This document shows positions 137 through 35,552 of a DNA stretch of 35,552 bases, piece after piece. The DNA is from a virus. The stretch lies in the IMG/VR virus record IMGVR_UViG_3300035670_000733, positions 1 through 35,552 of that record. One strand, given 5' to 3'. Within the stretch, counting starts at the first letter, position 1. Every line of letters begins with the position of its first letter. The notes under the pieces are model-generated. The model saw only the letters and a list, made by a program, of their open reading frames with translations. It was not told the DNA's origin and did not search any database. A program made the position numbers and the translations under genes.

Positions 137-294
137 GCCTAAGACTGTACGGCGTGCTACGGCTGGCGGCACGCATTGAGGAACTTAGGAAAGATGGACA
201 CACCATCGTGACGCAAACGGTGCGTGTTGGAAAGAAAGAAATCGCACGTTATTCATTAGTTAAGGAGAAGCAACATGGATCGACCAGACATTGA
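88..294 (+). CDS. Small winged-helix/HTH DNA-binding protein
   Basis: A 68-residue protein. An HTH core lies at about residues 12-39 (ITALDSLRLYG, then LAARIEELRKDGH), followed by a short basic wing (VRVGKKEIARYSL, about 45-57). The layout matches small phage HTH proteins of the PF14090 type, known mainly from sequence. I chose the ATG at 88, preceded by AAGGGG at 73-78; the longer TTG reading from 31 overlaps the previous gene. It lies between the annealing protein and the SSB-like gene, so it may regulate or accompany the recombination block. Target unknown. Confidence 0.75.
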   Translation: MILDHLQQGDGITALDSLRLYGVLRLAARIEELRKDGHTIVTQTVRVGKKEIARYSLVKEKQHGSTRH

Positions 295-559
295 ACGCAA
301 GATGGGTACAGGGGTGCTACTGAGCAATCGTAACAAGAAGTCGCCTAGTAGCCCTGATTGGCGTGGTGAACTCAAAGTATCTGAACACTACGCACCGGGT
401 GACACTATCAAGCTGGCAGCATGGACTAAGGACACGAAAGGGGGTGCGCTAATTTCGATCAAAGAAGATACTTGGGTGCCGCCTGAGAGTACCGGCCCCG
501 GCAATGTCAACCCTTTCCCTAGCAAGCGGAAAGATGATGGTGATATCCCTTTTAATTAA
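275..559 (+). CDS. Possible single-stranded DNA-binding protein (SSB-like tail)
   Basis: A 94-residue protein starting at an ATG 8 bases after AAGGAG and overlapping the HTH gene by 20 bases. The middle (RGELKV, then DTIKLAAWTKDTKGGALISIK) reads as short beta strands, as in small OB-fold phage proteins. The C-terminus DDGDIPFN closely resembles the acidic tip of bacterial SSB, which recruits replication and repair partners. Its place after exonuclease and annealing genes fits a ssDNA role. The tip is seen directly; the OB fold is inferred. It could instead be an unrelated small beta protein. Confidence 0.55.
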   Translation: MDRPDIERKMGTGVLLSNRNKKSPSSPDWRGELKVSEHYAPGDTIKLAAWTKDTKGGALISIKEDTWVPPESTGPGNVNPFPSKRKDDGDIPFN

Positions 560-602: not shown

Positions 603-1049
603 ATGATTCGTTTCAAAACTTGTTTTAAGTGCGAAGTTGAAAAGCCCCTTGATGAGTTTTATAAACACGCAAAGATGAGTGATGGGCATCTCAATAAGTG
701 CAAGCAATGCGCAAAGAAAGATGTCCATCAACATCGAGCAAAGAACTTGGAAAGGGTTCGTCAATATGACAGAGAGCGTGCAAAACTTGCTCACCGTATT
801 GCAGCAACTACGGATGTTACAAGAGCATGGAGAGCGGAAGATAAGAGAAGAGGCTATGCCCACAAAGCTGTTGCTAAGGCTTTGCGACATGGAACTCTTC
901 TTAGGGAGCCATGCTGTAGATGTGGAAACCAAAAAAGCCTTGCTCACCATGAAGACTACGACAAGCCATTAGACGTCATGTGGCTTTGTCAAGTATGTCA
1001 TAAGCAACGACACGCTGAGATAAACAAACTTCTGATGGAGGTCACATGA
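603..1049 (+). CDS. HNH endonuclease with an N-terminal zinc knuckle
   Basis: A 148-residue basic protein. Two CxxC pairs near the N-terminus (C7/C10 and C33/C36) form a zinc knuckle. A charged linker leads to a C-terminal HNH-type site: cysteines at 104-107, a His pair at 115-116 (AHHEDYDKPLDV), then C129-x2-C132-H133 and H137. This is the pattern of free-standing phage HNH nucleases. The ATG at 603 is preceded by AAGGAG; the upstream in-frame ATG at 576 lacks a site. The gene overlaps the next by ATGA. It is probably a selfish or homing-type nuclease, but a DNA-processing role is possible. Confidence 0.75.
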   Translation: MIRFKTCFKCEVEKPLDEFYKHAKMSDGHLNKCKQCAKKDVHQHRAKNLERVRQYDRERAKLAHRIAATTDVTRAWRAEDKRRGYAHKAVAKALRHGTLLREPCCRCGNQKSLAHHEDYDKPLDVMWLCQVCHKQRHAEINKLLMEVT

Positions 1050-1192
1050 AATACCTATTTGCGCTATGGTTAGCGATTACAGCACCACTGGTTTGGGCAA
1101 GCTGCACTTACAATACCTACTGTGATAGCGGTCGTTGTGTGACTTGCACAACGTGCTGTTATGGCAATAGCTGTCAGACAAACTGCTATTAA
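1046..1192 (+). CDS. Secreted eight-cysteine miniprotein
   Basis: A 48-residue reading frame whose ATG overlaps the HNH stop (ATGA), with GATGGAGG just upstream. Residues 1-18 form a signal peptide ending LVWA. The remaining 30 residues contain eight cysteines, including a CC pair, and end SCQTNCY. Disulfide bonding after export to the periplasm is likely. The W at -3 makes a lipoprotein site poor, though the mature chain begins SC. I recognise no characterised family. Roles in envelope change, superinfection exclusion or lysis are speculation. The clean translational coupling argues that it is real. Confidence 0.7.
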   Translation: MKYLFALWLAITAPLVWASCTYNTYCDSGRCVTCTTCCYGNSCQTNCY

Positions 1193-1275: not shown

Positions 1276-1635
1276 ATGAGCAAACTTAACAGGCAGCGTG
1301 GCGCAAGCTATGAACGTGAAGTCGCCAATGCGATATTTGATCAGCTAGGCATACGCATTCGTCGCAACCTGAAGCAGTATCAGGTGTCGGATGAAGGTGA
1401 CTTAATCCTTGGCAAATATCTCATTGAATGCAAACGCAGACGCAAGATTGCAGTGTATGATTTTATGGAGCAAGCAGAGAAGGCTTGCGAGATAGGTCAA
1501 ATACCCCTTGTGATCATGCGTGAGGATGGTAATAAGTCTTTAGCCATGCTCAGACTTCCCGACTTACTGACTCTGTTAGGTAACGAATTAACCCCCCATC
1601 AGCCACAGGATGAACCTTCGCCTGAAGGTAGTTAG
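1276..1635 (+). CDS. PD-(D/E)XK nuclease, Holliday-junction-resolvase-like
   Basis: A 119-residue protein with the archaeal Hjc-like pattern of a single-domain PD-(D/E)XK nuclease: GASYEREVANAI at 9-20 (E13), a GD at 41-42, and ECK at 51-53. A helix (YDFMEQAEKAC) and a strand (PLVIMRE) follow. Enzymes of this type cut branched DNA, which suits recombination intermediates or branch removal before packaging. The ATG at 1276 has only a weak ribosome site. It sits downstream of the exonuclease, annealing and SSB-like genes. Another PD-(D/E)XK specificity cannot be excluded. Confidence 0.7.
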   Translation: MSKLNRQRGASYEREVANAIFDQLGIRIRRNLKQYQVSDEGDLILGKYLIECKRRRKIAVYDFMEQAEKACEIGQIPLVIMREDGNKSLAMLRLPDLLTLLGNELTPHQPQDEPSPEGS

Positions 1636-33523: not shown

Positions 33524-34417
33524 ATGAGTGACTTTTCACCCGAAGTGCGTAATAACGCACTATGGTCTAACGATGCACGCCGTTTCGTTGAAGGCAGAAG
33601 CGGTGAGGTTTACGCTGAGAAGATCGGCGTTAAACCGTTAGATGACTTATCCGCTGTCGAAGCTGTGCAAATGGGTTTGGTAATGCAGGAACCCATCATG
33701 CGCGAGTTTGCACGCAGACAACGCATCAATTTCAAAGATGCTGACTACGCTCTCTATCATCCGCAACATAGCTTTCTTGCCAGCCACTTTGATTACATTT
33801 CAGAAGATGGGCAGACACTCTATGAGGTCAAGAATCTAGGTATCCACCAGCGTAAGAAGTATGGCGACGATGGCACAACTGACGTTGACACAGGCTACCG
33901 TGTTCAATGCTTGCATGAATCCTTAGTCCACCGTATCCCTAACGTGGTCTTAGTGGTCTGCTTTGGCGGTCAGGAAATCTGCCACTACCCGCAGCACTTT
34001 TCAGAAGAGCAATGGGATTTACACGCCAGAGAGATGGCACAGTTTTGGGGCAGGATTAAGGCTAGGAACTTTGATCCTGTAACGATGGGTGACGCTGCCA
34101 AGATTGTGTACAAGCAAGACAATGGCAACAGCCTGTTAGCCAATCAGGAACTAGAGCAAATCTGCGAGATGCTGAAGATTGTCAAAGAACAGCGCAAGGC
34201 ACTGGAAGCGCAAGAAGATGCCCTAGCTGCCAAAGTGCAAGGCTACATGATGGATGCCAGTCAACTAGCTACCTATGACGGGCGAATCCTAGCCACTTGG
34301 AAGGCCAGCAAGCCTACCAAATCCTTTTCCAAAGACTTGTTCAGGAACGCCATGCCAGAGATGTATGACAAGTTTGTGGTTGAACAACCGGGTTCCCGCC
34401 GATTCCTTTTGAAATAG
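33524..34417 (+). CDS. YqaJ-type recombination exonuclease
   Basis: A 297-residue protein with lambda-exonuclease-fold motifs: GLVMQEP with E56, HFDYI with D90, EVKN with E101 and K103, and the helix YRVQCLHE with Q128. YqaJ enzymes degrade one strand of double-stranded ends and load an annealing protein, which is encoded two genes downstream. The C-terminal third is a coiled coil (LEQICEMLKIVKEQRKALEAQEDALAAKV) and RFLLK end, as in family members. It likely generates 3' overhangs for replication and packaging. Confidence 0.82.
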   Translation: MSDFSPEVRNNALWSNDARRFVEGRSGEVYAEKIGVKPLDDLSAVEAVQMGLVMQEPIMREFARRQRINFKDADYALYHPQHSFLASHFDYISEDGQTLYEVKNLGIHQRKKYGDDGTTDVDTGYRVQCLHESLVHRIPNVVLVVCFGGQEICHYPQHFSEEQWDLHAREMAQFWGRIKARNFDPVTMGDAAKIVYKQDNGNSLLANQELEQICEMLKIVKEQRKALEAQEDALAAKVQGYMMDASQLATYDGRILATWKASKPTKSFSKDLFRNAMPEMYDKFVVEQPGSRRFLLK

Positions 34418-34636: not shown

Positions 34637-35474
34637 CGTAGTCAACATGGCAGGGGAGTCGGCAGTTGTCGCACTTGATCCTGCTATCCAATCATCCATT
34701 GTGTTGCGTGGTGACTTATCAGGATTGAACGAACAGCAGAAGCAGGACTACTACCTGTACCGCTGCCGCCAAGTCGGTCTTGATCCAGCCGCTAAACCCT
34801 TTGACTTGCTAACACTCAATGGAAAACAAATCCTTTACGCGAACGCAGGAGCTACTCAACAGCTATGTGCGCTCCACAAGCTATCCACTCAGATTACGCA
34901 TCGGGAACGTGTGGATGGAATTTACATTGTCTCCGTCCGATGCACGGGCGCTGACGGAAGAGTTTCAGAAAATCAAGGCGCAGTGGATGTTTCAACCCTT
35001 GTCGGCGAAAGACTGGCTAATGCCATCCTTAAAGCGACTACGAAAGCAATACGGCGGTCGGTTCTTGCGCATTGTGGACTCGGAATGCTTGATGAAACTG
35101 AAGTTGAAACCATCCCAGAAGCGCGTACAGCTCCGATAGTGGCACCACAACCAGTGACACCTATCGAAGTACCTGCACCACCACCAAAGTTGACAATAGG
35201 TGTTGCTTTCATGGTGCCGGGTAAGACTGAACCCTATGCCTACCATGCCAACGATGATGAGTTTGTCAACGGCTACTTGGAAATGGTCACAAGCATCATG
35301 GCAAGCGCTAAGCTGAACGCTGCCGAGAAGCTGTCAAAGATTACAGCATTAGAAAGTGCCAATGACTTTGTGCTTGGCATGATTGAAGCTGATAAGCCAG
35401 TGTTGTTCGAGGTATGGACAAGAGGCGTTAAAGAGGCAAAGGAGGCTTGCGATCAGCAGATAAAAAAGGGTTGA
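34629..35474 (+). CDS. Probable single-strand annealing recombinase (281 aa)
   Basis: A 281-residue protein. Residues about 30-160 carry LNEQQKQDYYLYRCRQVGLDPAAKPFDLLTLNGKQILYANAGATQQLCALHKLS and ANAILKATTKAIRRSVLAHCGLGMLDETEVE, an order found in phage recombination proteins near YqaJ-type exonucleases. A proline-rich linker (about 165-195) and a helical tail follow. It would anneal complementary ssDNA made by the exonuclease. The annealing role is inferred from neighbours and resemblance. The gene ends at the contig join (positions 1-58 repeat its end). Confidence 0.62.
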   Translation: MSNVVNMAGESAVVALDPAIQSSIVLRGDLSGLNEQQKQDYYLYRCRQVGLDPAAKPFDLLTLNGKQILYANAGATQQLCALHKLSTQITHRERVDGIYIVSVRCTGADGRVSENQGAVDVSTLVGERLANAILKATTKAIRRSVLAHCGLGMLDETEVETIPEARTAPIVAPQPVTPIEVPAPPPKLTIGVAFMVPGKTEPYAYHANDDEFVNGYLEMVTSIMASAKLNAAEKLSKITALESANDFVLGMIEADKPVLFEVWTRGVKEAKEACDQQIKKG

Positions 35475-35552
35475 AGCCAGCCAGCGGCAAGGGGCAATCA
35501 GCCATGATCCTAGATCATTTGCAGCAAGGTGATGGCATTACAGCCCTTGATA
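35417..35552. repeat. Right copy of the terminal redundancy (contig join)
   Basis: Same sequence as 1-136 apart from two synonymous differences (35420 and 35426). The copy holds the end of the annealing-protein gene and the first 49 bases of the HTH gene. Confidence 0.93.
35504..35552 (+). CDS. Duplicate 5' end of the HTH gene (partial)
   Basis: The ATG at 35504 is the same as that at 88 after circle closure. It is cut off by the end of the window, not by a mutation; the full gene is at 88-294. Confidence 0.9.
   Translation, partial: MILDHLQQGDGITALD

Follow-up and report, generated by a model that had tools for sequence, protein, structure and literature searches.

Tiny, apparently exported cysteine-rich proteins of many uncultured phages, often encoded directly behind a single-strand-DNA-binding gene

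Several phages encode small proteins that act in the periplasm of the infected cell. The Spackle protein of T4 (gp61.3) is early, periplasmic and disulfide-containing; it inhibits the tail lysozyme of incoming T4 and excludes superinfecting phage, and it consists of a 75-residue alpha-helical bundle with one disulfide (PMC7677548). Llp and Rtp45 are small periplasmic proteins, also disulfide-containing, that block receptors from the periplasm, and Rtp45 pairs a strand with LptD (PMC9586334, PMC12685063).

The locus described here lies in a window of 35,552 nucleotides, the whole stretch of viral DNA that was analysed. The two ends of the window share about 126 bases: the sequence from position 11 on recurs from 35427 (1-136 versus 35427-35552). 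The window therefore probably represents an entire genome, circularly permuted and about 35.4 kb long, in which a recombination operon with a RecE-like exonuclease runs on into position 1. The features considered are as follows.

33524 to 34417, plus strand: RecE-like exonuclease, upstream in the same operon (phrog_434)
275 to 559, plus strand: SSB-like protein with an acidic tail (PHROG single-strand DNA binding protein, E=1.9e-4), ancestral upstream partner that adjoins the peptide gene in relatives
603 to 1049, plus strand: HNH / endonuclease VII-like gene, between the SSB-like and peptide genes (phrog_2340, E=2e-32)
1037 to 1041, plus strand: Shine-Dalgarno sequence GGAGG, 4 nt upstream of the ATG
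1046 to 1192, plus strand: peptide gene, stop included (ATG start, TAA stop, 48 aa)
1046 to 1099, plus strand: predicted signal peptide, residues 1-18, with a putative cut between VWA and S (AXA-like site of the family; helix 3-12 in the AlphaFold2 model)
1100 to 1189, plus strand: mature peptide, 30 residues with 8 Cys, a predicted three-stranded antiparallel meander (20-27, 30-39, 42-47)
1276 to 1635, plus strand: PDDEXK / RusA-like resolvase, the next gene of the operon (PF24608, E=5e-7; phrog_244, E=2e-20)

How does this peptide compare with the described systems? It resembles Spackle in being small, in being a phage product with a periplasmic signal and in its (predicted) disulfides; early expression is established for Spackle and is suggested for the peptide by the position of its gene in the operon. 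The two share no sequence match, however, and the helical bundle of Spackle with its single disulfide contrasts with the 30-residue all-beta sheet and four disulfides predicted for the peptide. The T5 Llp/Cor/Rtp45 proteins are likewise very small, periplasmic and disulfide-containing, as is predicted for the peptide, but they are lipoproteins, whereas the peptide has no lipobox and no sequence similarity to known members (Pfam, PHROG, PDB). In addition, the Llp gene adjoins a receptor-binding gene, whereas the peptide gene lies in a recombination operon. No homologue of known function was found for the peptide among the databases searched.

The sequence-only reading had described a 48-residue ORF with eight cysteines, an export signal and a strong ribosome site, and these are present as described, the signal being predicted from the family pattern. 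The interval 1046-1192 on the plus strand translates as MKYLFALWLAITAPLVWASCTYNTYCDSGRCVTCTTCCYGNSCQTNCY, with all eight Cys within the last 30 residues. A Shine-Dalgarno-like motif precedes 182 of the 187 family members with readable upstream DNA. Among the 189 unique 8- and 6-Cys proteins at the loci examined, 187 carry K/R at residues 2-6, a hydrophobic core is present, and an AXA-like site stands immediately ahead of the first Cys (187/189). The window peptide reads W-A-S-C at the cut. Identity as a lipoprotein was ruled out by the missing lipobox, which is canonical in only 1 of the 189 members.

Two checks had been named beforehand, one for homologues with conserved cysteines in related phages and one for selection, and both spoke for the gene. 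When IMG/VR was scanned with the peptide, at least 525 relatives were obtained and confirmed by tblastn, and the best 80 of these all keep the frame, the length and all eight Cys (80/80). Further IMG/VR scans reached a 6-Cys and a 4-Cys subfamily, so that the family comprises forms with eight, six and four Cys; contig counts overlap between scans, and the family size is a lower bound. The family is found on at least hundreds of environmental phage contigs, and the earlier remark that such a product is unusual for a phage early arm is not borne out. The window peptide fits the family pattern of a signal-like N-terminus and a mature part of the form C-x11-16-C-x2-CC-x3-6-C-x3-C. The 4-Cys subfamily was joined to the family by a single profile comparison (hhalign probability 96.9, E 1.4e-10), and it shares the slot behind an SSB-like gene with the other forms. 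One 4-Cys member matches Pfam DUF2574 (PF10836) over residues 1-45 (E=1.7e-4), although its 21.8 bits fall below the curated cut-off of 27.5 and the window peptide has no match. At several loci (L062, at 1406-1549, L064-L067 and L078) a tandem paralogue is 38% identical to the window peptide and retains all eight Cys; this copy is diverged and has a weak signal peptide.

The 8-Cys type was represented by 57 distinct DNA sequences, for which pN/pS was 0.11 over the whole gene (pS 0.745, pN 0.082) and 0.095 over the mature part (pS 0.803, pN 0.076), with synonymous sites close to saturation. Each Cys column was Cys in 57/57 sequences, with both TGC and TGT in use; in 95 sequences of the 6-Cys type, the six Cys columns were likewise fixed and both codons were used. 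Selection on the peptide is strongly purifying, and the Cys are invariant within each subfamily. The notion of a chance ORF or translation noise can draw on the very short length of the gene and on the wrong-strand annotation of its sole named relatives, but it is contradicted by hundreds of homologues, invariant Cys, the low pN/pS, and the kept ribosome site and operon position. We regard it as refuted by the homologues and the selection, with a vanishingly small probability, and on these comparative data take the peptide gene to be genuine and under selection.

The gene has been overlooked by annotation. A tblastn search of named phages and plasmids gave credible matches only in two Manatee Spring records, MW202462 and MW202544, and in both the sole CDS called over the peptide gene is on the opposite strand; no cultured phage or host of the window lineage came to light. 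The annotated CDSs opposite to the peptide strand at L082 (817-1059) and L083 (4063-4305) are probably spurious calls. The window peptide had no match in Pfam, PHROGs, NCBIfam or PADLOC, while a few other family members gave weak, sub-threshold matches to profile libraries; among PDB sequences there was no credible match to the window peptide and none to the family profile. No description of the family was found in the literature searched, and it was probably left unnamed because its members have fewer than 50 residues. No relative turned up in 84,980 bacterial and archaeal species scanned twice with narrow patterns, which argues against a bacterial origin within the reach of such patterns. 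Since the same type of pattern finds hundreds of members in viral contigs, the family looks phage-specific, again as far as narrow patterns go. Overall, the peptide belongs to an extensive, hitherto unnamed family, whose tiny members seem to be exported by many uncultured phages to the envelope of the infected bacterium.

The gene order in the window lineage is exonuclease, recombination gene, small ORF, SSB, peptide and PDDEXK resolvase; the gene after the exonuclease has no PHROG match and is a recombination gene on our reading. In this lineage, every one of the 61 SSB loci that could be read has the peptide gene immediately downstream of SSB; L376 and L024 denote one contig, which carries the peptide. 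Over the whole set of 246 distinct contexts, 74 have an SSB-like gene whose end lies no more than 20 nt from the peptide, and in other lineages the peptide follows SSB, Cro-like or exonuclease genes and precedes O-like replication genes. No lysis or tail gene was seen directly beside the peptide among the annotated clusters, which cover part of the neighbours. In the window itself, an HNH gene sits at the stop codon of the SSB-like gene and overlaps the peptide start. The sequence-only reading had seen coupling in this ATGA overlap; the overlap is there (1046-1049), but a meaningful link is not supported: among the relatives examined that share the upstream operon the HNH gene is directly upstream of the peptide only in the window and L056. 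In L002, which encodes an identical peptide, the SSB stop, the ribosome site and the peptide start are contiguous, without HNH. We therefore rejected an HNH-peptide partnership, as the insertion is missing from almost every relative that has this operon. Judged by gene order across these relatives, the overlap is an incidental by-product of the HNH insertion, and SSB and the peptide form the conserved pair.

An AlphaFold2 model of the full-length protein, built on 84 sequences, placed a signal helix at 3-12 and strands at 19-27, 30-39 and 42-47 (mean pLDDT 76.3). When the mature part was modelled alone, nearly the same strands were obtained with a mean pLDDT of 90.1 (89.0-90.1 over five models). 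The pTM was 0.39-0.40, a low value of the kind usually seen with chains this short. A PDB fold search with the full-length model returned no match under E=1. The Thr-rich TCT strands are reminiscent of insect antifreeze proteins, but the predicted sheet has only a few Thr per face.

The predicted sheet turns at 28-29 and 40-41 with two residues each. In hairpin 1 the facing residue numbers therefore add to 57, which pairs C26 with C31 and C20 with C37; in hairpin 2 they add to 81, which pairs C38 with C43 and C34 with C47. The mature part is very probably disulfide-bonded, and from this modelled strand register its Cys probably form four cross-strand disulfides, C20-C37, C26-C31, C34-C47 and C38-C43. 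The losses of Cys fall along the same lines. First, the 6-Cys form lacks exactly C26 and C31: 142 of 189 unique members are without both, 47 have both and none has one. Second, the 4-Cys branch lacks C38 and C43, and its hairpin 2 is also shorter. In a tree built without the C26/C31 columns, a single branch separates the 8-Cys members from all others, so that the switch between six and eight Cys is a single event and the pair statistics rest on two events, not hundreds. These two events, each of which strikes a predicted pair, support the disulfide pairing, short of proof. They also bear on the idea that the Cys bind metal or buffer the host Dsb oxidation system, which the CxxCC core and the high Cys density would suit. 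Against it, the Cys vanish in cross-strand pairs as disulfides would, and exported proteins enter an oxidising compartment; we hold this idea improbable, and a metallothionein-like identity is disfavoured by the same paired losses.

Beta-hairpin antimicrobial peptides are short sheets with a cross-strand disulfide ladder, and the compact disulfide sheet predicted here resembles them. This likeness would suit a folded peptide that is freed when the cell lyses and is harmful to bacterial competitors or to cells that harbour other phages. However, the mature net charge is 0 or +1 in 188 of 189 members, unlike that of cationic membrane-active peptides; the peptide also differs in having three strands and in being phage-encoded within a recombination operon, a position that, with no immunity gene noticed, further weighs against release as a weapon. 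We consider such a role unlikely, if slightly less so than metal or thiol handling, and a cationic antimicrobial peptide in particular is disfavoured by the lack of strong positive charge.

What, then, might the peptide do? Among the roles of small periplasmic phage proteins, exclusion of later phages is the one studied best, and for this reason we rank exclusion first and inhibition of a host component second. Under the exclusion reading, the peptide would be produced early from the recombination operon (exonuclease, recombination gene, SSB, peptide, resolvase), and the pre-peptide would cross into the periplasm and lose its signal by a cut after VWA. Under the oxidising conditions there, it would fold to a rigid three-stranded sheet with its eight Cys in four cross-strand disulfides. 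This rigid binder would then alter the host envelope and thereby keep a second phage from entering the infected cell, possibly through contact of the sheet or surface with a protein, in the manner of T4 Spackle or T5 Llp/Rtp45. Export and folding as an oxidised rigid sheet are well supported as predictions from sequence and model. The last step, that the peptide is an early periplasmic superinfection-exclusion or entry-block factor, is argued by analogy, and we put it forward tentatively, as the leading candidate with somewhat less than an even chance.

The conservation across phages exceeds what a factor adapted to a single receptor would lead one to expect, which speaks against exclusion, and a conserved host target fits that conservation at least as well. 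The peptide may instead inhibit some conserved host machine in the periplasm or outer membrane (such as Lpt, BAM, the cell-wall synthesis apparatus or a periplasmic protease) and so aid the phage in the same infection. The near-invariant mature sequence over divergent phages fits one conserved partner, and the operon is of an early type with the peptide at every readable SSB locus of the window lineage; on the other side, the peptide surface is near-neutral and any target is a candidate only. Such a takeover is a possibility that we rate somewhat below exclusion.

With about the same reserve, we speculate that the peptide is a phage effector of a new kind, a flat mini-sheet of three strands with four disulfides, which disables a single envelope component that is conserved in and shared by many aquatic bacteria. 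Its gene would often lie directly behind single-strand-DNA-binding genes in a recombination operon. Should the peptide block either entry or some conserved machine of the envelope, it would rank with the smallest folded effectors of phages and would offer a stable 30-residue lead to an envelope target. The family is absent from the profile libraries tested and carries a wrong-strand call in both named genomes, and in the 8-Cys branch its mature part hardly varies. The SSB-peptide pair illustrates that gene pairs can stay conserved across divergent phages yet escape annotation.

Other small ORFs were observed at the loci examined. At L223 (MW202753, 28107-28274), a different 55-residue ORF, UOF81604, occupies the slot between SSB and RusA; it has a hydrophobic N-terminus and five Cys, and is possibly a functional stand-in for the peptide. 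A small lipoprotein-like ORF with a recurring Cys motif (GC..RFRYPCQD / KFRYPCQD ... CP) was seen at L068 5665, L071 5646 and L081 5454 (minus strand), and L175, L177 and L182 contain a small ORF with CIDAPCCGCC near its C-terminus.
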